Shown: positions 48,970 to 59,631 of the stretch, one piece after another
How the letters are laid out: every line of letters starts with the position of its first letter
How positions within the stretch are numbered: position 1 is the first letter of the stretch
Origin: Bacteroidales bacterium
Lineage (GTDB): Bacteria > Bacteroidota > Bacteroidia > Bacteroidales > F082
NCBI GenBank assembly: GCA_024400425.1
Contig: JAKSMV010000005.1
Span: 62,001 to 126,000, forward strand
Direction: 5' to 3'
Length of the DNA stretch: 64,000 nucleotides
Translations under genes and position numbers: made by a program
The notes under the pieces: model-generated
The model's database searches: none
What the model saw: the letters and a program-made list of their open reading frames with translations, nothing else
What the model was told of the DNA's origin: nothing

Positions 48970-49992
48970 ATGGCCCAGTGGCAAAAAACACAAATCCAGC
49001 GAGATAACGGCATGATGGCCGAGGCACAAGCCCCCGTCATCATCTCGGCGAGTAGAAGCACGGACATCCCGGCTTTCTATGCCGACTGGTTCTTTCATCG
49101 GCTGAAGGTGGGCTATTCCGCTTGGACGAATCCGTTCAACGGTGTGAAGAGTATTATTTCGTATGAGAAATGCCGCTTCATCGTGTTTTGGTCGAAGAAT
49201 CCGAAGCCATTGCTTGAGCATTTGGATGAACTGAAGGAAAGAAACATCGGTTGCTATATCCAATACACGCTGAACGATTACGAAAAGGAAGGCTTGGAGA
49301 AGGGCGTTCCACCCTTGGAGGAAAGAATTGATACATTCAAAAGGTTAGTGGACAAATTGGGCCAAGGGCGTGTGATTTGGCGCTTCGACCCGCTGATTCT
49401 GACGGACCAAATCAACATGGACGACTTGTTGGAAAAAGTGGAAAACATTGGTGACCAACTGAACGGTTACTCGGAAAAGCTCGTTTTCAGTTATGCCGAC
49501 ATCGCATTATATAAAAAGGTGAAAGCCAACCTTGAGAAAAGCAACATCAATTATTCGGAATGGTTGCCGGAGCAGATGGTGGAATTTGCCAAACGGTTGG
49601 TCGAATTGAACAAAGCAAAAGGCTGGAACTATGCTTTGGCAACCTGTGGCGAGGCGGCCAATCTTGATGGTGTGGAGCACAACCGTTGCGTGGATGATGA
49701 CCTGATGATTCGTTTTGCCCACCACGACAAGGCTTTGATGGACTTTCTCGGCATGGAGATTACCGAAGGCGACCTCTTCGACCCCAAACCGACCATCATC
49801 AAGCACCGCGACAACCGCGACAAAGGCCAGCGACAGTTCTGCGGCTGTATGGTGAGTAAGGACATTGGCGAGTACAACACTTGCCCGCATTTGTGTGAGT
49901 ATTGCTATGCTAATGCGAGTAAGGAGAAGGCGCAAGAGAATTATAACAAACACGAAATGAATCCTTTGGGAGAAACAATAGCGGGAAAATAA
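48970..49992 (+). CDS. DUF1848 family protein
   Basis: A 340-residue protein of the DUF1848 family. The N-terminal strand IISASRSTDIPAFYADWF, then FIVFWSKNPKPLLEHLDEL and QYTLNDYEKEGLE, match the family; the C-terminus carries a Cys cluster FCGCMVSKDIGEYNTCPH, LCEYCYANAS that looks like an Fe-S or zinc site. The fold is predicted TIM-barrel-like in this family, related by some to radical-SAM/spore-photoproduct-lyase proteins, but no activity is established. A 38-codon decayed copy of its tail lies at 51291-51407, beyond the DUF1016 gene. Confidence 0.85.
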   Translation: MAQWQKTQIQRDNGMMAEAQAPVIISASRSTDIPAFYADWFFHRLKVGYSAWTNPFNGVKSIISYEKCRFIVFWSKNPKPLLEHLDELKERNIGCYIQYTLNDYEKEGLEKGVPPLEERIDTFKRLVDKLGQGRVIWRFDPLILTDQINMDDLLEKVENIGDQLNGYSEKLVFSYADIALYKKVKANLEKSNINYSEWLPEQMVEFAKRLVELNKAKGWNYALATCGEAANLDGVEHNRCVDDDLMIRFAHHDKALMDFLGMEITEGDLFDPKPTIIKHRDNRDKGQRQFCGCMVSKDIGEYNTCPHLCEYCYANASKEKAQENYNKHEMNPLGETIAGK

Positions 49993-50021: not shown

Positions 50022-51227
50022 ATGAACCAACCAGCGACATACAACAAGGCAGTAGAGACTATCAAGACAGCCATTTTGCAAGGACAATACGAAGCAGCCA
50101 AAGGCGTGAACCGTATACAATTAGCGGTTTATTTTGGCATCGGAAAATACATCTCGCTCAACACGCGGAAAGGCGTTTGGGGAACAGGCGCATTGGAAGT
50201 CATTAGCCAGCAACTTCGGAAAGAATTGCCTGGGTTGCGTGGCTTTGCCCCATCAAGCATGAAAAACATGCGACAATTTTATGAGGAATGGGCGATGCTG
50301 GATGCCAATTCGCCAATTGCAATTGGCGAATTACAACAGGCTAATAATCAGACGGATAATAAATCGCCAATTGAGATTGGCGATTTGGAAGGATCTAATT
50401 CGTCGGTTACGACCGACGAATTACAAGTAGTTGATAACAAGATTGATATTTATCATTCGTTGTACATTCCCGATGCGATGGCCTTCCCTGCAGAAGATTT
50501 TTTCAAGGTGCCTTTTACCCATCACTCGCGCATTTTGGCTGGTGCTAAAACATTGGAGGCTCGTTACTACTACATTCACCGCACGGCAGAAGAGAATTTG
50601 TCGGTGGAGGCATTACAATCTCTACTCAAAGAGAATGCCTACGAGCGCAGAAATACAATGCCGAGCAACTTTACAAACACACTTCCTGATGCGAAACTTG
50701 CCCGCAAAGCGGTGATGATGTTCAAGGACGAGTATTTGCTGGATTTCATCAATGTGGAGCAGATTGGCGAGCGCGAGTCCATTGATGTGGACGAGCGCGA
50801 GGTGGAACAGCAGATTGTCCAAAATGTCAAGAATTTCATCATGACTTTCGGAAACGATTTTGCGTTTATCGGGAACCAATACCATTTGGAGGTATATGGT
50901 GTGGAGCATTTCCCCGACCTGTTGTTTTTCAACCGCGAACTGAACGCCTTGGTGGTAGTGGAACTGAAGACGGGCGACTTCAAGTCATCTTACCTTGGAC
51001 AATTGATGTCGTATCTTTCCATTTTGGATGCCAAAGTGAAGAAGCCTCACGAAAACCCGTCTATTGGCATAGTGCTGTGCAAATCGGCCAAGCGTGATTA
51101 TGTGGAGTTTGTCATCCGCGACTACAACAAGCCCATGGGCGTGGCCACCTACAAAACCACAGCCGAAATGCCAGAGGAACTGCGGAAAGCAATGCCCGAT
51201 ATTGAGGAATTGAAGAAACTGCTGTAA
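50022..51227 (+). CDS. DUF1016/YhcG family protein with PDDEXK nuclease domain
   Basis: A 401-residue protein. The N-terminal DUF1016 helical domain (about 8-95: AVYFGIGKYISLNTRKGVWG, GFAPSSMKNMRQFYEEW) is followed by a variable linker and the YhcG-type PD-(D/E)XK domain: FIGNQYHLEVYGVEHFPDLL supplies the Asp and ALVVVELKTGDFK the E-x-K, near residues 288-320. The linker (about 96-134) is encoded by three perfect hairpins in frame, giving SPIAIGELQ, SPIEIGDLE and SSVTTDELQ. YhcG proteins are frequent neighbours of restriction-modification and other accessory genes; their target is uncertain. Confidence 0.86.
   Translation: MNQPATYNKAVETIKTAILQGQYEAAKGVNRIQLAVYFGIGKYISLNTRKGVWGTGALEVISQQLRKELPGLRGFAPSSMKNMRQFYEEWAMLDANSPIAIGELQQANNQTDNKSPIEIGDLEGSNSSVTTDELQVVDNKIDIYHSLYIPDAMAFPAEDFFKVPFTHHSRILAGAKTLEARYYYIHRTAEENLSVEALQSLLKENAYERRNTMPSNFTNTLPDAKLARKAVMMFKDEYLLDFINVEQIGERESIDVDEREVEQQIVQNVKNFIMTFGNDFAFIGNQYHLEVYGVEHFPDLLFFNRELNALVVVELKTGDFKSSYLGQLMSYLSILDAKVKKPHENPSIGIVLCKSAKRDYVEFVIRDYNKPMGVATYKTTAEMPEELRKAMPDIEELKKLL
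50307..50422. repeat. Three consecutive perfect hairpins inside the nuclease gene
   Basis: A 26-base palindrome at 50307-50332 (AATTCGCCAATTG centre), 11-base arms at 50361-50371/50376-50386 with a TGAG loop, and 11-base arms at 50397-50407/50412-50422 with a TACG loop. All keep the frame. Confidence 0.88.
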
Positions 51228-51290
51228 AAGAGGATCTACAATGATGATAGAACAAAACACCAACTATGCCTACAAGCTGAAACACAAGCC

Positions 51291-51407
51291 GACACCTGCC
51301 CTCATTTGTGCGAGTATTGCTATGCGAATGCGAGCAAGGAAAAAGCGCAAGAGAATTTTAATAAACACGAAATGAATCCTTTGGGAGAAACGATAATGGG
51401 AATTTGA
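51291..51407 (+). pseudogene. Decayed duplicate of the DUF1848 C-terminus
   Basis: The 38 codons from DTCPHLCEYCYANASKEKAQ to the TGA repeat the end of the DUF1848 gene (49873-49992) with mostly silent changes (for example TGTGAG/TGCGAG, GCTAATGCG/GCGAATGCG), but nothing upstream in frame belongs to DUF1848. It is a remnant of a second copy, separated from the first by the DUF1016 gene. Confidence 0.8.
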
Positions 51408-51457: not shown

Positions 51458-52807
51458 ATGCTAAAAACGCCTTTTAATTCTTCAAGACAATCACAATCAA
51501 CAACGCTACATGCAGATTACAATTATGAAATCAATCGGAGGAAACCATTGAGTTTTGATACGATTCGTAAATACGCATCAGAATTGTATTCTCAAAAAAC
51601 TCAAATTGAACAAAATAAGTTACATGATTGTCTTGAACATGGAACAAAAATACTAGACAATATGAATGAGCTTTATGCATACTTGCACTCGTACGGGAAA
51701 ATGCATCAAGCTAAATTAAATCTTGCTTTTGATAACATACCAAAAGCATTCTTTCAGAACAAGGAAATCAACATTGTTGATTACGGCTGTGGCCAAGCTG
51801 TTGGAACCATGTGCTATGCTGACTATATTCGCAAGTCTCATCATAATCAAAAGGTAAAAAGCATAACCTTAATTGAACCTTCAAAGAAGTGTCTTGATCG
51901 GGCAGAACTACATGCTTCATTGTTCTTTCCTGGTGTTAAAATCATCCCAATTCATAAGAAATTTGAAGAATTGACTTCGCAAAATTTCATTGAAAATCAA
52001 GGTATTCCAACGCTTCATATTCTTTCTAATGTATTAGATTTAGATTTTGATTTAGAAAAATTTGCCAAATTGTTAATGGACTCTTATAGTGGACACAACC
52101 AATTCGTTTGTGTCGGTCCTAGTATTTCCAATTCAAAAGACGATAGAATTCATGATTTTGCTCGCTATTTTAACCCAAATCCTGACAATGAATCATCCGG
52201 TGAATTATCCGAATATCAATTGAATCCTGATGAAAAATGGACATGTGTTTATCATTGTTTCGTTTACGATGCTAAAAAAGATGACAACCGTCAAGTAGCC
52301 GTACAAACACGGGATCATCACGATGAAGTAACGACAATTACAACGGATTCTAAACAAGTTGATGCAGAAGCACTCTATTGTCTTGGGATGAGTTATTGTA
52401 ATGGATTGGAGATTGAACAAGATTTGTTCAAAGCCTACAATTGGTTAAAAAAAGCAGCAGAAAAGGGGAATAGTAAAGCAATAGAAATGCTTTCTTATTG
52501 TGACGACACAATAGAGATTAGCCCAGGGTGGCAACGCTCTGATACTGAACATTGTAATTATCTTGAGTTTAAAAAGAAATACAATCAAGGCAATTCTTTT
52601 GTCTTCAAAGAGACTCCCAATGGTACACTTTATACGATAATCCGTATTGTATATAATGGCAAGCCAAGGTTAATCCGTTTATATGTCTTATCCTCAGTTA
52701 CTTCATTGAACAGAATGAGTGTTTATTTGGCAAAGTATGGTAATGGCAAGATGTTTTACTATTTGGACGTAGAAGAAGAAACCAATTTGACTCGTTATGA
52801 TGATTGA
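51458..52807 (+). CDS. Methyltransferase-like protein with Sel1 repeat and a C-terminal repeat unit
   Basis: A 449-residue cytoplasmic protein, AT-rich in codon use. A helical segment with LEHGTKILDNMNELYAYLHS leads to a Rossmann-type SAM-binding motif NIVDYGCGQAVGTMCYADY near residue 106, an acidic strand SITLIEPSKKC after it and TLHILSNVLDLDFD further on. Residues about 310-345 look like one Sel1 repeat (LGMSYCNGLEIEQDLFKAYN). The last 80 residues (YLEFKKKYNQGN to the end) correspond to a unit found three times in the next gene. The start M is chosen after an upstream segment without homology; the longer frame opens at 51404. It overlaps the next gene by 11 bases. The family is not recognised; a methyltransferase role is inferred only from the motif. 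Confidence 0.72.
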   Translation: MLKTPFNSSRQSQSTTLHADYNYEINRRKPLSFDTIRKYASELYSQKTQIEQNKLHDCLEHGTKILDNMNELYAYLHSYGKMHQAKLNLAFDNIPKAFFQNKEINIVDYGCGQAVGTMCYADYIRKSHHNQKVKSITLIEPSKKCLDRAELHASLFFPGVKIIPIHKKFEELTSQNFIENQGIPTLHILSNVLDLDFDLEKFAKLLMDSYSGHNQFVCVGPSISNSKDDRIHDFARYFNPNPDNESSGELSEYQLNPDEKWTCVYHCFVYDAKKDDNRQVAVQTRDHHDEVTTITTDSKQVDAEALYCLGMSYCNGLEIEQDLFKAYNWLKKAAEKGNSKAIEMLSYCDDTIEISPGWQRSDTEHCNYLEFKKKYNQGNSFVFKETPNGTLYTIIRIVYNGKPRLIRLYVLSSVTSLNRMSVYLAKYGNGKMFYYLDVEEETNLTRYDD

Positions 52808-54629
52808 AAACAACACCGATTATAGCAGAACACTAAAATACATTATAGGGAATGATGCCCCTTCTTTTGAAATAGTTAGAGATGTTGCAAAGGCTATATT
52901 AAAAAGGCAACCTGATAATGTACAACAACACGCATACGATTCCCTCGAACACGGAACGGCCGTCCTTTTCCATGGCCTTCAAATGGATGCTTATTTGCAC
53001 GCTTATGGAAGGATGCACCAAGCGAAACTCAACTATGCATATAAGCATATACCCGAGACTTTTTGGGCTCAAAATGAAATCAATATAATAGATTACGGTT
53101 GTGGGTTAGGAACTGGAATTATGTGCTTTGCGGATTTCCTTCATAAACAAGGATTCGTTCTGAAAGTCAATACTATTACATTGATAGAACCTTCTGTACC
53201 AACTTTAAAAAGAGCTGCCCTTCATAGCCGACTCTTCTTTCCTAATGTAAATATCAATACTATAGATAAAGACTTCGATAAATTATCTGAAGAAGACATC
53301 GTTTGCAAAGATGATATACCAACCCTTCATATACTTTCAAATGTGTTGGATTTAGATTTCAATTTTGAGCGTTTCTCATTACTAATTCGAGATTGTCTGA
53401 AAGGATACAATCAGTTTGTTTGTACTGGGCCATATTTTTATGACTATGAAAAGGACGAAAGAATGGAATTGTTCGCCGACAAGTTAATGGGTAACAATGT
53501 AGAGTACGATAAAAATGACGAGTTGGACCCTAACGAAGATTGGACTTGTGCAATCTGTTGTTTCAATGCTGGGGATGTGACAATAAACGAGAATCTCAAT
53601 GCTGACAACCTCATTTTATATCCAATAAAGAACAGGTATCAATCTGAAAAAGTTATTCTAAACCCTTTTAATGATTATGAGGATTTCAAGAAGCAGTTCA
53701 ATCAGGGAGAAAAAATTAAATTCTATCATAATCAAAATGGACTTCTCGAATCTTTCCCCTTGGCTGTGAAGAAATCCAGAAGGTCAAATGTGTTTATTAA
53801 AGTTCTTGTTAGTGAAAGTTGCGACATTAACAATCCTTTACACATTGATGTTGTTTCTATTGATAACAAGTATTATTACTTTATTGACAACCAATGGGAA
53901 ATTGAAATGCTTCTCCAAATGAATCCATCATTCGAAAAAAGAGAGCTAACAAATAACAGTAAATATTATAAAATAACCGACCTAAATGCTTTTTTGAAAC
54001 AATCCAATAATAATCAATTTATTGAATTCAGAATCAATCAATTTGGTTGCTTTGAAGCGACTAAATGCATTATTATTAATGGGAAAGAAGAACAGGTTAG
54101 TTTTTTCATCAGACCGGGTTGCAATGTTAATAAACCCATGACTATAAAGATTGTTGAAACCAATCATAACGGCAATCAATATTATGCGTTTATAGACAAT
54201 CAATGGAAATATCGTGTTGATTGTAGTGATGTTTCTTCTCATCAATTTAATGCATTAAGAGACGATGAATGGGCATATTATATTGAGTATCGCAGCAGTT
54301 CTCCTTTATATCAACAGTACGTCAGGATGGGAAAGGCAGTTCGACAAAAGACATCATACAGAATTGATATTTTTGAATATGAGGATTTTAAAAAGCAATT
54401 CAATAATGGAGAGAAATTCTCATGGGTACAAACGCATAACAACCTATTGGTTACCTATGCAGAATTGACATTCAATCACCATGAGAGTTTGACGAAAACA
54501 ATCGCATCAATATTTTGGAATGAAGACGTTGTTTCAGAAAAAAATAGAATAGTTGAATTGTACTTAGATACATATTCAGGGAACTACACAGGGACACTAA
54601 AGAATGTCGATGAAATTATCGAATTATAA
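52797..54629 (+). CDS. Methyltransferase-like protein with three C-terminal repeat units
   Basis: A 610-residue paralogue of the preceding protein. The N-terminal half aligns with it throughout: LEHGTAVLFHGLQMDAYLHA, NIIDYGCGLGTGIMCFADF (near residue 97), NTITLIEPSVPTLKRAALHS and TLHILSNVLDLDFNFERF. The C-terminal half holds three diverged copies of a unit of about 80 residues that begins DFKKQFNQGEKIKF (near 293), DLNAFLKQSNNNQ (near 395) and DFKKQFNNGEKFSW (near 527). No signal peptide or membrane segment. Its start is inside the preceding gene (11-base overlap), so the two proteins are made together. Function unknown; the tandem pair is the most promising undescribed unit here. Confidence 0.72.
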   Translation: MMIENNTDYSRTLKYIIGNDAPSFEIVRDVAKAILKRQPDNVQQHAYDSLEHGTAVLFHGLQMDAYLHAYGRMHQAKLNYAYKHIPETFWAQNEINIIDYGCGLGTGIMCFADFLHKQGFVLKVNTITLIEPSVPTLKRAALHSRLFFPNVNINTIDKDFDKLSEEDIVCKDDIPTLHILSNVLDLDFNFERFSLLIRDCLKGYNQFVCTGPYFYDYEKDERMELFADKLMGNNVEYDKNDELDPNEDWTCAICCFNAGDVTINENLNADNLILYPIKNRYQSEKVILNPFNDYEDFKKQFNQGEKIKFYHNQNGLLESFPLAVKKSRRSNVFIKVLVSESCDINNPLHIDVVSIDNKYYYFIDNQWEIEMLLQMNPSFEKRELTNNSKYYKITDLNAFLKQSNNNQFIEFRINQFGCFEATKCIIINGKEEQVSFFIRPGCNVNKPMTIKIVETNHNGNQYYAFIDNQWKYRVDCSDVSSHQFNALRDDEWAYYIEYRSSSPLYQQYVRMGKAVRQKTSYRIDIFEYEDFKKQFNNGEKFSWVQTHNNLLVTYAELTFNHHESLTKTIASIFWNEDVVSEKNRIVELYLDTYSGNYTGTLKNVDEIIEL

Positions 54630-54652: not shown

Positions 54653-55462
54653 ATGTTAGGATCAATCATTGGAGATATCATAGGCTCAAGATTTGAAGGC
54701 TACAACAGCCGAATCAAGACTACGGATTTTGAGCTGTTCGATAAAAGCAGCAAGTTCACCGATGACACCGTGCTGACCGTCGCCGTGGCCGACTGGCTGA
54801 TGCGAGACCCCAAGCATCAACACGCAACTTTGGTCAAGATTATGCAAACATACGGGAGGATGTATCCTGGTGCGGGCTTCAGTCATGCCACTAAAGCATG
54901 GCTCAATAGCGAAGACCCACAGCCTTACGGCTCCTTCACGAATGGAGCCGCCATGCGTGCCAGTCCTGTCGGATGGGCTTTTGAAAGCATGGAAGAGACG
55001 TTGGAAGTAGCGAAACGCTCAGCTGAGGTGTCGCATAACAGTGAGCAAGGCATTACCGCTGCCCAAGCCGTTTCGGCTGCCATATTCATGGCTCGGCATC
55101 AGGCAAACAAAGCAGAAATCAAATCCTTTGTCGAGGAGCGATTCCATTTCGACCTTAATCACACAATCGAAGAAATACGTCCGCACTATGATTTCGATTG
55201 TTCCTGTGAGGGAAGCGTTCCCGAGGCCATCATGGCTTTCATGGATGGCGAAGACTATGAGTCCGTCATCCGTCTGGCCGTTTCGCTGGGTGGCGACAGC
55301 GATACACAAGCCTGTATTGCCGGAGGTATCGCTGAAGCGTATTATGGTTGTATCCCGAAAGAAATCATCAAAAAAGCCGTGCATCATCTGCCTAGCCATT
55401 TCCGCAAAGTCATCACTGACTTTGCCATGGCAACGGAATATAGATTGCCAAAGTTCATTTAA
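54653..55462 (+). CDS. ADP-ribosylglycohydrolase family protein
   Basis: A 269-residue all-helical hydrolase of the DraG/ARH family, which removes ADP-ribose from proteins, nucleic acids or small molecules. The metal-binding elements are visible: GDIIGSRFEGYN near residue 8-18, KFTDDTVLTVAVADWL near 35-50 (Thr-Asp-Asp) and LGGDSDTQACIAGGIAEAYY near 215-235 (Asp-x-Asp). Length is usual. It starts 23 bases after the second methyltransferase-like gene on the same strand and could be co-transcribed with it. Target unknown. Confidence 0.9.
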   Translation: MLGSIIGDIIGSRFEGYNSRIKTTDFELFDKSSKFTDDTVLTVAVADWLMRDPKHQHATLVKIMQTYGRMYPGAGFSHATKAWLNSEDPQPYGSFTNGAAMRASPVGWAFESMEETLEVAKRSAEVSHNSEQGITAAQAVSAAIFMARHQANKAEIKSFVEERFHFDLNHTIEEIRPHYDFDCSCEGSVPEAIMAFMDGEDYESVIRLAVSLGGDSDTQACIAGGIAEAYYGCIPKEIIKKAVHHLPSHFRKVITDFAMATEYRLPKFI

Positions 55463-55516: not shown

Positions 55517-55551
55517 CATAGTCGAAAGGCAAACAAGAAGATTTGTTCATC

Positions 55552-56457
55552 ATGAAAAAACGATTTGTCGCTATTATATTAGTCGCATTAGCATTAACTG
55601 GTTGCATTCAAAAACAACCGAACTCTGACTCAAATAAGCAGACTGTGGATTCTGTCACACAACAGAAACCAAGCATTGATAGCTTACTGAATACCATAGT
55701 TAGGCCAAGCCAAATGGAACTGCCGATGGTATGGACTGATACGATTTATGACACTTGCTTCACGAATTGGTCTCACGACAGAAAATATGCCGTGTTTGTT
55801 GGCAGAACTGAGGAAGACAAAATACTTGGAGACCAGCATTTGACATGCTATGGCGTATTAAGCATGGATGAGCGCAACTCCATTTTCCTTTATGATGCCG
55901 GTGAGAACGCCATATCTTTATTGATGACGACAAGCCCAGAAGGGTTCGGCTTGTATCTGCCAAAGATAGACATGAAACGCGATTGGGTATATTATTTCAG
56001 GGAATATGGAGCGACAACCATGAGCTTTATGCGGTATAATCTTAAAACCAAAGAAGAGGAGTTTCTGACAGGTTGCTATTATCAAGTCTTATTTGATGTT
56101 AAACCCAATGGGAACATCTTATTCCAGAATGTGAGAGAAGATGTATTAGTTATTGACACAAGTCTGTTGGAGGATGAAAACGGTTGGCTGGGCTATGTGT
56201 TTTGTGACATTGAAATGACACCGGAAGGGATTTGCGTCAACAAAGGCAAATATTACAACTTTGACGACATGGATACAAAGACAGGAAAAACACTTGACGT
56301 GAGTGAAATGATTATCCTAAATAACAAACAGTATAGACCACGTTGGGAGCCTTCGGATATTGGTGACTTTAATGAGTTCTATGACAAAAAAGGCAATCAT
56401 GTTGGAAGCACATATAATACCATCGAAAGCTATGATGGTTGGAATGGGCAGAAATAA
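55552..56457 (+). CDS. Exported lipoprotein of unknown function
   Basis: A 301-residue lipoprotein (lipobox LALTGCIQK, acylated Cys near residue 18). After an Asn/Ser/Gln-rich linker it has beta-rich sequence with repeated strands (YAVFVGRTEED, GENAISLLMTTSP, DWVYYFREYGATT, EEFLTGCYYQVLF) compatible with a beta-propeller. No family name recognised. It is first of three lipoprotein genes in a row on the plus strand, with the next one starting 19 bases downstream. Confidence 0.7.
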   Translation: MKKRFVAIILVALALTGCIQKQPNSDSNKQTVDSVTQQKPSIDSLLNTIVRPSQMELPMVWTDTIYDTCFTNWSHDRKYAVFVGRTEEDKILGDQHLTCYGVLSMDERNSIFLYDAGENAISLLMTTSPEGFGLYLPKIDMKRDWVYYFREYGATTMSFMRYNLKTKEEEFLTGCYYQVLFDVKPNGNILFQNVREDVLVIDTSLLEDENGWLGYVFCDIEMTPEGICVNKGKYYNFDDMDTKTGKTLDVSEMIILNNKQYRPRWEPSDIGDFNEFYDKKGNHVGSTYNTIESYDGWNGQK

Positions 56458-56476
56458 ACGAAAAAGGAATGTTGGC

Positions 56477-57736
56477 ATGAAAAAGACCATTAGAATTTTG
56501 ACAGCCTTGGTACTTGGTATCATGGTTTATGCTTCATGCGGCAGGAAAAAAGTCGAGAATCCTTGCGTTTATTACGATGAGCTGGTTAATGGCAATAAGG
56601 TTGTTATTTTATTAGACCGACATGTAATAGATGGGAATTCTGCGGATGCGTGTATTTTTCTTTGTAATGATTCAAATACATGGATGGTCAGGCAACCTAT
56701 TTTCATTGGTGAGTTTCTGGAATTGTTCGGTAAAGACTTAAAGAATGCTGTAGCTTGGAATTACTATTATGACGAAACAAAAGGGCCGCACCTGGATTGG
56801 AGGACGATTGTGGCATTTGATGACTATGATTTTGATGGAGAAAAGGAGTTGGCTGTTTGCGGCCATCCACGACCTTTTCGGGAAGGTGTTGAGCGTCATT
56901 GGTTGGATTGCGAGGACTTTACCTTTTATGAACTTACGCAATACGGATATACGGAAATAAATAGTAAAGCATTTGATGAATTGGCCAGCGGCTTATGCAG
57001 GACACATTACGATTTTGACACAATCAACCGTACACTAACGCTGATAGGTGTTGAGAGTGCGTTTGAGGTCGATACATCCATTTTTTATTTTCAAGACGGT
57101 GAAATTGTGGATGTAATAACAAATACTGTCGAGGATGAAATGGATTTATACAACGCTGTTTTAAATGCAGCATCCAGCGAAGATTATCATGAAAACATGA
57201 AAAGCAGTGTAATAGAGGCGGTTTTACCGTTCTGTAAGAGTAAAACAAATTCTGCTGCGGCACAAGCCATCTTGGATTCAGCACGACATGATGATTTAGA
57301 ATCAGCCGAGGCTATTCTGAAGGAAACGATTGACGATTTCATTAGTGACAAAAACATTTGCGGAAACAAAGAATTGCTTTCTCTGCTGAAATGTCTTTAT
57401 GTTATTTATTCCACTTATATCGGTGAGCATTTTGCGGCATATATGGTTTGTGAGCGTTGCACAGAATTAGTAAACTATATGGTGAGCCCTACTAGTGACG
57501 CGAAGGAAATACTAAGCATGGCCGACTGGAGATTTGTCATTTCGGTTCATGCGAAGAATGGAAAGCAGGATGCCTATACAAAACTGCTTGACGAATACTC
57601 TAGCTGGATTATTCGCAAATATGGAGAATACAGTATTGAAGCCAAAAAAAGTGAAGCCATTAGAGTAATAGCTAATGACGAATACCTATATTGGCAGAGG
57701 TATTATGGGCCGATTGACGACAGTTTATGTGAATAA
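56477..57736 (+). CDS. Exported lipoprotein of unknown function
   Basis: A 419-residue lipoprotein; the start MKKTIRILTALVLGIMVYAS with Cys following is preferred to an upstream in-frame ATG at 56360 that overlaps the preceding gene by 98 bases. The first half has VAFDDYDFDGEKELAVCGHP, an EF-hand-like/FG-GAP-like acidic loop (DDYDFDGEKE), consistent with a calcium-binding beta-propeller blade; the second half is helical with Cys-containing TPR-like segments. It is separated from the previous gene by 19 bases. No enzymatic motif. Confidence 0.68.
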   Translation: MKKTIRILTALVLGIMVYASCGRKKVENPCVYYDELVNGNKVVILLDRHVIDGNSADACIFLCNDSNTWMVRQPIFIGEFLELFGKDLKNAVAWNYYYDETKGPHLDWRTIVAFDDYDFDGEKELAVCGHPRPFREGVERHWLDCEDFTFYELTQYGYTEINSKAFDELASGLCRTHYDFDTINRTLTLIGVESAFEVDTSIFYFQDGEIVDVITNTVEDEMDLYNAVLNAASSEDYHENMKSSVIEAVLPFCKSKTNSAAAQAILDSARHDDLESAEAILKETIDDFISDKNICGNKELLSLLKCLYVIYSTYIGEHFAAYMVCERCTELVNYMVSPTSDAKEILSMADWRFVISVHAKNGKQDAYTKLLDEYSSWIIRKYGEYSIEAKKSEAIRVIANDEYLYWQRYYGPIDDSLCE

Positions 57737-57758
57737 ACCTTACAATACACGTTGAAAT

Positions 57759-58706
57759 ATGATTAAACAATGTTTGGCCATTATATTGGCAATGTTGGTC
57801 ACGGCATCATTCTATGGATGCGCCAACGATAGAAAGCAGGGAGAAGAAGTTCAGGACATCAGTCTTAGACAAAAACCCAAGGAAACATGGGATGATTTTC
57901 AGAGGCGTAAAGATTCTCTTTGGACTGTGTTCAATGAATCGACTGACGAAGCAGAGGTTGATAAGGCGAGGGTTATGCTCTTCGATATGGGCTGTAATGC
58001 TGACTGGGGTATGATCGTTTCGACAGATTATGAAAGGCATAAAGCATGTGTTGAAAAGGAGTACCTACAATTTATCTCTGCTCATCCAGAGCAGGAGGCG
58101 CTTTTCCGCGAAGAGAAAGAAAGATGGGAGAATTACCATGAAGCAGTTTCGGCGGTGGCGGAGCTTGAGGACCACGGTAGTAGTGGCGCTTTGTATATCA
58201 CCGGTGTTTTGGAACAAAGCGTGGATCTTTGGCTAGCTTCTTTTCATAACCTTTGGCTATTTGATCAAAACCAAGACATGTCATTTTCGGAAACAATATT
58301 TACTACCCGTATGATTGATGATGCTTATAAGGCATATTTCAAACAGGCTGATGGTTGGGCTAGGTCATACTGCTTTGAAGAGAAAGACGGATTAAAAGAG
58401 CACCATGATGCCTTGGTGCATGAGAGAAAAAGATGGAACGAGTGGATGGCTTTTCGCAAGACGGTTTCAAAGTCTCTGCCAAAGGATATGCGCAAAATAT
58501 ATGATGGCTGCACAAACCTTACGATGAGGACAAAATTGCATCAACTGAAGAATCAAAATGAAGGGCTTGGACTAATGAGTGATGACGTTTCGAATTGTTT
58601 ACTGCCAGATTCCTGTTCCGACAAAGCTTTGTTGGAATATCCAGGATTAAATGTTGTTCTAGAAAAGCATTGTGCTGATTTGAATTGGTATCCCGAATTT
58701 GATTGA
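57759..58706 (+). CDS. Exported lipoprotein of unknown function
   Basis: A 315-residue lipoprotein (ASFYGCAND, Cys near residue 21). The remainder is highly charged and helical with many Trp (WDDFQRRKDSLW, ERWENYHEAV, ERKRWNEWMAF), resembling periplasmic LprI-like or DUF1311-like helical proteins only superficially. It starts 22 bases after the preceding lipoprotein gene. Downstream is an AT-rich gap followed by gene remnants and an insertion element. Confidence 0.66.
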   Translation: MIKQCLAIILAMLVTASFYGCANDRKQGEEVQDISLRQKPKETWDDFQRRKDSLWTVFNESTDEAEVDKARVMLFDMGCNADWGMIVSTDYERHKACVEKEYLQFISAHPEQEALFREEKERWENYHEAVSAVAELEDHGSSGALYITGVLEQSVDLWLASFHNLWLFDQNQDMSFSETIFTTRMIDDAYKAYFKQADGWARSYCFEEKDGLKEHHDALVHERKRWNEWMAFRKTVSKSLPKDMRKIYDGCTNLTMRTKLHQLKNQNEGLGLMSDDVSNCLLPDSCSDKALLEYPGLNVVLEKHCADLNWYPEFD

Positions 58707-58883: not shown

Positions 58884-59631
58884 ACGTGAGTTCGATATAA
58901 TCAATCAGAAGATAGTCAATTGGTTATCAGGGCAGGCTTCAACAGAGATGGAAGGTTTCTTAGGGAAGAAGCAGTATGCGGCGATGGCGGCCACGGCATT
59001 GACGATGAAGTTGTTGAACGAGCGGTGCCTTGAATGCTCCAGTTGTGCGATGTTCTTCAGTTCGTCGTTGACCGACTCAATGACCGCCCTTTTGCGAAGC
59101 AGTATCTTGTCGGAGACGCTCATCAGGCAGTTCTTCATGTTGCTCTTCACCTTGGTTATCAGCTGGATGCCATCGACGAACAGTTCCCGGAACAGCTCTT
59201 TTGATATGTGGCCCTTGTCTCCGACCAGCAGCAGCGCGACTCCACGCTCCAGCTTCACGAACCTGCTGTATGACACGGTCTTAGGGAACAGGTGCGTCCA
59301 ATGCCGGCAGACGAATTCAAGGTAGAAATGCTTGAGGCAACGGTGTCCGCCCATGTGGAAGGCGACGAGAATGGTGATGACCTCGGCATCCGAAAGGCGG
59401 TTGGGCTTGTTGCGGTGGCGCTTCCCGCCGGGTTCCTCCAAAGCGTTGTTTTTCACCGTTTCGCTGTAAAACTTGCAGAAATCGTCTGCCAAGCAATAAA
59501 TTTCCGTAATTTTGTCCTCTGATAATAACATAGCGTGCTTTTTTGTGTTGTCTTATTTTTACACTACAAATATACAAAAAATATCGCTATGTTATTCTTT
59601 TTCAAGCAATTATTTTATATCGAACTCACGT
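58884..59631. mobile_element. Internally deleted IS982-family insertion sequence
   Basis: A 748-base element with perfect inverted ends (ACGTGAGTTCGATATAA at the left, its complement at the right) flanked by a 6-base target duplication TAATTA (58878-58883 and 59632-59637). It carries a transposase gene shortened in frame. Intact ends and duplication show that the element moved as a short form, presumably with transposase supplied in trans. Confidence 0.88.
58905..59531 (-). pseudogene. IS982-family transposase with internal deletion
   Basis: 208 residues instead of about 300. The N-terminal part (LADDFCKFYSETVKNN, RLSDAEVITILVAFHMGG) and the C-terminal part (VGDKGHISKELFRELFVDG, KRAVIESVNDELKNIAQLEH) are well conserved, but the segment between LERGVALLL and VGDKGH, roughly 90-95 residues including the first catalytic Asp region, is missing without a frameshift. 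It cannot be an active DDE transposase. Confidence 0.88.

Follow-up and report, generated by a model that had tools for sequence, protein, structure and literature searches.

Two overlapping genes in a 64,000-nucleotide stretch of Bacteroidales DNA (contig JAKSMV010000005.1, positions 62,001 to 126,000; hereafter the window) encode proteins that begin with a common methyltransferase-like block, which we name MTN. Comparison of these genes, open reading frames (ORFs) 1 and 2, with related loci places MTN in a module that is widespread in bacteria and apparently undescribed. In this module, MTN is fused to variable C-terminal tails and paired with either DUF1848, a predicted radical S-adenosylmethionine (SAM) enzyme, or an AlkB-type oxygenase. 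We give about an even chance to the reading that the module is a mobile, modular conflict system, probably directed against phages or mobile elements, with a core composed of the Rsm22-like MTN protein and a dealkylase or radical-type enzyme.

As an initial annotation of the window had proposed, ORF1 and ORF2 both exist, overlap (by 11 bases) and share an N-terminal block (~260 residues, 45-46% identical). The residues Y66, H74, K77, D99, C102, G103, E131, P132, N182, D185 and P212 are invariant in all 66 aligned MTN rows, and every one of them is kept in both window proteins. Motif I of class I methyltransferases and the acidic residue after strand 2 are represented by D99, C102, G103 and E131 (66/66), with C102, within motif I, being the sole invariant cysteine. 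The methyltransferase-like character and SAM motif that had been read from the letters of this block are borne out by these residues and by the fold of the model.

AlphaFold predicts the MTN block of ORF2 with a predicted local distance difference test score (pLDDT) mostly above 90. The top structural match of the model (res. 21-265) is METTL17, with a Z-score of 16.1 over 222 residues, followed by Rsm22 (15.4); the next, unrelated match is EgtD (14.1). The METTL17 and Rsm22 matches come from mitoribosome assembly structures, of which entry 8om2 states the chain outright; the other chains we take, from entry titles, to be these two proteins. METTL17 and Rsm22 are thought to act in ribosome assembly. 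Profile comparison by hhalign also aligns MTN with bacterial Rsm22 (probability 96.7), and the weak outside matches of the MTN profile include genes detected by PF09243 (G305, G177, G251). MTN and Rsm22/METTL17 (PF09243) have in common a class I methyltransferase fold that extends to the leading helices, and a motif I of the form DWGCG. MTN is a relative rather than a member of Rsm22, because PF09243 finds no match in ORF1 or ORF2 at E values up to 1 and because C200, C206, C218 and C286 (L179 numbering), conserved in four Rsm22 rows, are absent; it further differs in its variable tails, its DUF1848 or AlkB partner and its defence-rich loci. The initial annotation did not recognise the family, and indeed no library family covers MTN above its cut-off, nor does a known family span both halves of the window proteins. 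PADLOC leaves most of MTN uncovered, with only C3a159 matching 72 residues of ORF1 (E 4e-5) and no match in ORF2, and a PDB sequence search with the MTN or DUF1848 profiles gave no convincing match.

MTN is encoded at 414 places among GTDB representatives, 79 of which were read as loci. Going by record titles, these belong to Bacteroidota, Bacillota, Actinomycetota, Chlorobi/Ignavibacteria, Kapaibacteria and Deferribacteres. MTN also resides on plasmid and mobile contigs and is patchy within the family of the window's host (29/173 genomes); its homologues are not scattered housekeeping genes, a possibility that the initial annotation had raised. The part of the protein that follows MTN is exchangeable: it can be a helicase of DEAD/RecQ type, in many cases accompanied by an MTES_1575 nuclease domain, a UvrD-like helicase, an Upf1-like helicase (AAA_11/AAA_12) that may or may not carry PIN, or a tail of LRR_5, Sel1, Lcl_C-like or ~85-residue units. 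The MTN tree divides into a clade with helicase tails and a clade with repeat tails, the second of which carries leucine-rich repeat (LRR), Sel1 or unit tails and no helicase; both window genes fall in the latter, on long branches. The helicase of the RecQ-type form matches the DpdF and PsyrT models, and that of the UvrD-like form matches NERD+UvrD and GajB. Directly downstream of the RecQ-type form, in 31 of 34 cases, lies a coiled-coil gene whose product ends in a hydrophobic segment (tail-anchored). Other genes seen near particular forms include a radical-SAM activase-like gene directly after an MTN gene with a Sel1 and LRR tail (L133:5766-6407, L138:13671-14315), TerB genes downstream of the UvrD-like form (L055-L057) and, in several loci, trypsin-like protease genes beside DUF1848/MTN-helicase genes (L044:9886-10491, L193:6961-7539).

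Of 83 MTN loci, 66 have DUF1848 next to MTN. This count and those for AlkB were made by tblastn; ORF calling, in which longer ORFs on the opposite strand masked some DUF1848 genes, places DUF1848 immediately upstream of MTN, or fused to it, in 57 loci. Single-protein DUF1848-MTN fusions are found in L067, L118 and L121. Within the host's family, 28 of the 29 MTN-bearing genomes possess DUF1848, which occurs in 38 of the 173 genomes as a whole (hypergeometric P 9e-23). The recurrent pairing that the initial annotation had named as support for a system thus exists in many genomes, with DUF1848 or AlkB as the partner instead of the ADP-ribosylglycohydrolase; DUF1016/YhcG, its other suggestion, recurs only occasionally.

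In aerobic lineages, the gene ahead of MTN mostly encodes an AlkB-type 2-oxoglutarate (2OG)-Fe(II) oxygenase of ~204 residues. This protein belongs to the AlkB-type oxygenases by its Pfam match (PF13532, E 6e-35, 121.6 bits versus a cut-off of 31.2) and is distinguished from them by its operon linkage to MTN, in the slot of DUF1848. AlkB occurs in 17 of the 83 MTN loci, and DUF1848, AlkB or both in 77. All 11 aerobic-lineage loci carry AlkB versus 6 of 68 others, while DUF1848 is found in 1 of the 11 versus 61 of the 68. The lineages that we presume to be aerobic are Flavobacterium, Runella, Gillisia, Aequorivita, Algoriphagus, Fluviicola, Haloflavibacter, Chryseobacterium and Robertkochia. 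Mapping AlkB presence onto the MTN tree requires four or more changes of state. An AlkB gene lies behind an Upf1-type MTN gene in L109 and directly upstream in G248, and on the Moraxella osloensis plasmid pSKB0120-4 it follows a bare 280-residue MTN at a distance of 9 bases. AlkB requires oxygen, and radical-SAM enzymes are oxygen-sensitive. The simplest inference from an oxygen-matched exchange in one slot is that AlkB and DUF1848 do equivalent jobs, one O2-dependent and the other O2-independent. If the known chemistry of AlkB is a guide, their common substrate may be an alkylated base, and the exchange thereby offers a concrete, testable substrate prediction. The Moraxella plasmid also carries a viperin-family gene ~3 kb from the MTN-AlkB pair (L192:4754-5680).

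The assignment of DUF1848 to the radical-SAM enzymes is a prediction based on its model (pLDDT 92.9) and conserved cysteines. Foldseek alone gives no match with E below 0.001, only mixed barrels, and the margin of the assignment is modest; upon realignment of the Foldseek candidates, the top 24 rows are all radical-SAM enzymes (Z 7.7-9.1), among them spore photoproduct lyase (Z 8.9). A CX3CX2C motif is formed by C305, C309 and C312, each in 50/51 rows, and four more cysteines are conserved (C226, C240, C291 and C293), all seven being present in at least 50 of the 51; the family-invariant residues are intact in the window protein. DUF1848 shares with the radical-SAM superfamily (spore photoproduct lyase, the PA0069 family, Elp3) the CX3CX2C motif, a (beta/alpha) barrel and its top structural matches. 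It differs in its extra four-cysteine set, in a Pfam Radical_SAM score below cut-off (14.8 versus 29.5 bits) and in the position of the motif, which lies at residues 305-312 of 340 and not near the N-terminus ahead of the barrel strands. A circular permutation is likely, though not proved. The alignments to spore photoproduct lyase and the pyruvate formate-lyase-activating enzyme start past their cluster loop or motif, as expected from such a permutation, and reordering the DUF1848 profile extends its alignment to the PA0069-type radical-SAM enzyme from 21 to ~187 columns, with no improvement in score. In front of a different, MTN-free type of DUF1848 (L165:5574-7819, L166:5486-7708) lies a cysteine-rich gene of ~290-300 residues, which in L165 has no Pfam match; this arrangement suggests another DUF1848 pairing.

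Under the conflict-system reading, MTN would be a writer that methylates a nucleic-acid target or modifies it otherwise using SAM. DUF1848 in anaerobes, or AlkB in aerobes, would act on the same alkylated base as an eraser or editor, removing the group or processing it further, and the tail fused to MTN would set where this action occurs and what follows. Helicase and nuclease tails would process nucleic acid that bears the mark; tails of LRR, Sel1 or 85-residue units, the form seen in the window, would more likely bind a protein or another trigger. A bolder version holds that the module is a new class of immune system, in which the MTN writer with its interchangeable sensor or helicase-nuclease tails is joined by an eraser in two unrelated, oxygen-matched versions, AlkB or a permuted radical-SAM DUF1848 serving as an O2-independent nucleic-acid dealkylase; this we regard as rather doubtful. 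If the proposal is true, it would provide a function for DUF1848, hint at an oxygen-independent counterpart of AlkB chemistry and reveal a widespread modular conflict system that combines one enzymatic core with many recognition and processing tails, including leucine-rich repeats.

The surroundings of MTN agree with the accessory or conflict-related setting that had been suggested for the window. One hundred proteins around MTN loci match 329 PADLOC models at 1e-10 (Gabija-, Septu-, type I restriction-modification-like and others), versus 8 models for 68 proteins of seven arbitrary Bacteroidota regions, a comparison that is indicative only, as PADLOC models are redundant. Pfam families among the neighbours include SLFN_AlbA_2, AAA_21, N6_Mtase, YhcG and PglZ. 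Like this redundancy, several other points weigh against a conflict system built on an MTN writer. A hotspot for accessory genes in general could account for the defence neighbours; the aerobic and anaerobic labels derive from lineage knowledge, and the locus sample is phylogenetically clustered; and MTN may bind RNA without methylating it, given that METTL17/Rsm22 is its closest fold relative. Structure prediction, proposed in the initial annotation as a check, succeeded for the MTN block of ORF2, which is Rsm22/METTL17-like, and failed for the repeat units (pLDDT about 30-40 for units 1 and 2, and 50-80 for part of unit 3).

Traces of recombination are visible behind DUF1848. Bases 51229-51286, between YhcG and ORF1, are 86-96% identical to the spacer and MTN starts of other loci, and bases 51292-51402 duplicate the 3' end of DUF1848, with 89% identity to 49877-49987. 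The gene behind this type of DUF1848 varies among related genomes: it can be YhcG, an LRR gene without most of MTN, or an AlbA/HATPase gene. Because of this scar and the varied followers, we view the slot behind DUF1848 as a site of cassette exchange. Split or stop-bearing DUF1848 and MTN genes are also found in the genus (L031:4918-5929, L169:2456-3478, G102:C82, G118:C58), pointing to frequent cassette decay.

Such decay raises the question of whether the tandem pair of the window is itself a functionless product of cassette recombination. The scar, the long branches of ORF1 and ORF2 and the broken copies in related genomes would fit, but the family-invariant residues are intact in ORF1, ORF2 and DUF1848 and both frames are open and overlapping, which makes this explanation very unlikely. 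A related doubt concerns the N-terminal block alone, which could be a catalytically inactive SAM-binding scaffold for RNA or ribosomes, as proposed for METTL17/Rsm22, with the tails doing the work. Its best fold and profile matches are to exactly these proteins; however, a case for an active site comes from the invariant residues, which include Y66, H74, K77, N182 and D185 and lie both within the SAM site and outside motif I, and MTN is devoid of the conserved Rsm22 cysteines, so that we think an inactive scaffold unlikely.

Other alternatives accept the enzymes as active and assign them a different purpose. In a nucleic-acid repair or stress-tolerance operon, the task of AlkB or DUF1848 would be to reverse alkylation or similar lesions, and DNA processing would fall to the RecQ-type fusion. 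AlkB and spore photoproduct lyase, a structural match of DUF1848, are both direct-reversal repair enzymes, and the RecQ-type fusion with its tail-anchored coiled-coil companion would suit such a role. The patchy distribution in the host's family, the defence-rich flanks, the occurrence on plasmid and mobile contigs and an entire clade with LRR, Sel1 or unit tails and no helicase all speak against repair, and we do not expect it to be the answer. A toxin-antitoxin pair, in which MTN would methylate host RNA or DNA to harmful effect and AlkB or DUF1848 would strip the methyl group, seems distinctly unlikely: the fusions place both halves in one polypeptide, which is unusual for an antidote, and the window has two MTN genes for one DUF1848, even though the minimal two-gene layout in Moraxella, the tight coupling and fusions, and the enzyme exchange at the partner slot would suit it. 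Should a restriction-modification or toxin-antitoxin type prove true, the module would be a variant of that kind.

We rate the MTN-DUF1848/AlkB system as new, as it is named in no library or paper tested and its core pair is without counterpart in the systems compared. A literature search that covered few subscription journals returned no paper on DUF1848 or PF08902, none on a circularly permuted radical-SAM enzyme among the titles listed, and none on the MTN module combination. The Dpd system (7-deazaguanine in DNA) resembles the module in that the RecQ-type helicase part matches DpdF and nucleobase enzymes stand beside a helicase and a nuclease, but MTN and DUF1848 are not Dpd components. 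The module genes scanned match Dpd helicase models only (DpdF, DpdJ), full neighbourhoods not having been searched with every Dpd model. PsyrTA is similar in its helicase, PsyrT, which the RecQ-type part matches; in the module, however, MTN and a nuclease are fused to the helicase, and the partner genes are others. Among PADLOC families associated with defence-associated reverse transcriptases (DRT) or type III CRISPR, RTasDUF1848, C3a159, NERD+UvrD C3a187 and CARF_2OG are matched weakly to clearly, but the module yielded no reverse transcriptase or CRISPR gene, and the combination is not described.

The tails of the window proteins are built from a unit of ~85 residues, present once in ORF1 and three times in ORF2, as had been noticed. 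By profile comparison, the units are related to one another beyond shuffles: unit 1 of ORF2 matches a profile of the other units at 3e-16, versus 0.007 for the best of 2000 shuffles. What identifies unit 2 of ORF2 is mainly its similarity to unit 1 (E 2e-10); the leave-one-out profile of the units did not recover it. The initial description of 80 residues starting DFKKQFNQG holds only for copies 1 and 3 of ORF2 as to the start (DFKKQFN) and not for the diverged copy 2 (NAFLKQSNNN), nor for the length. The unit is rare, being clear only in the window genome and G109 among 99 genomes of the genus, and in G109 it likewise lies downstream of MTN and Sel1. The Sel1 repeat reported for one gene is in ORF1 and scores just below the Pfam cut-off (30.1 versus 30.7 bits, E 6e-7); on this match, it is real despite the score.

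Table 1 Genes and sequence features of the module region in the window
Feature	Position	Strand	Remarks
DUF1848 gene	48970..49992	+	Predicted radical-SAM enzyme, CX3CX2C at C-terminus; core partner; PF08902 E 1e-88
YhcG/DUF1016 PDDEXK nuclease gene	50022..51227	+	PF06250 E 7e-47, PF17761 E 1e-22, PADLOC PDC-S02 E 3e-117
Recombination scar	51241..51402	+	MTN gene start joined to second DUF1848 3' end
ORF1: MTN block, Sel1 and one repeat unit	51458..52807	+	ATG at 51458; TTG at 51404 also possible
Sel1 repeat of ORF1	52364..52471	+	PF08238 E 6.4e-7
ORF1 repeat unit	52544..52804	+	Sequence comparison with other units
ORF2: MTN block and three repeat units	52797..54629	+	
ORF2 MTN block, Rsm22-like class I SAM-methyltransferase domain (predicted)	52797..53591	+	AlphaFold model, structure and profile matches
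ORF2 repeat unit 1	53661..53915	+	
ORF2 repeat unit 2 (diverged)	53964..54221	+	
ORF2 repeat unit 3	54366..54626	+	
ADP-ribosylglycohydrolase gene	54653..55462	+	PF03747 E 4e-37; flanking, probably outside the module

The DUF1848, YhcG/DUF1016, ORF1, ORF2 and ADP-ribosylglycohydrolase genes all point in one direction. YhcG/DUF1016 was rejected as a core component, being found between DUF1848 and MTN in a minority of loci and also after DUF1848 where MTN is missing. The ADP-ribosylglycohydrolase was likewise rejected as a partner: in L040, L046, L047 and L049, an 88-89% identical copy follows cassettes that differ from one another, its copies in the genus usually have the same lipoprotein-like neighbour, and the gene is rare near the module elsewhere. 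A viral origin was considered and dismissed as well. Window ORF2 has no confirmed match among viral contigs, where the MTN profile gave four, and the phage-collection record MT836254.1 carries the pair, but its other genes are not clearly phage. Further along the window, three lipoprotein-like genes without a clear Pfam family occupy 55543-58706; the one at 57759-58706 is seen again close to the ADP-ribosylglycohydrolase gene of L040, L046 and L049. A transposase-like ORF at 58905-59531 on the minus strand is likely the insertion element mentioned in the initial annotation.

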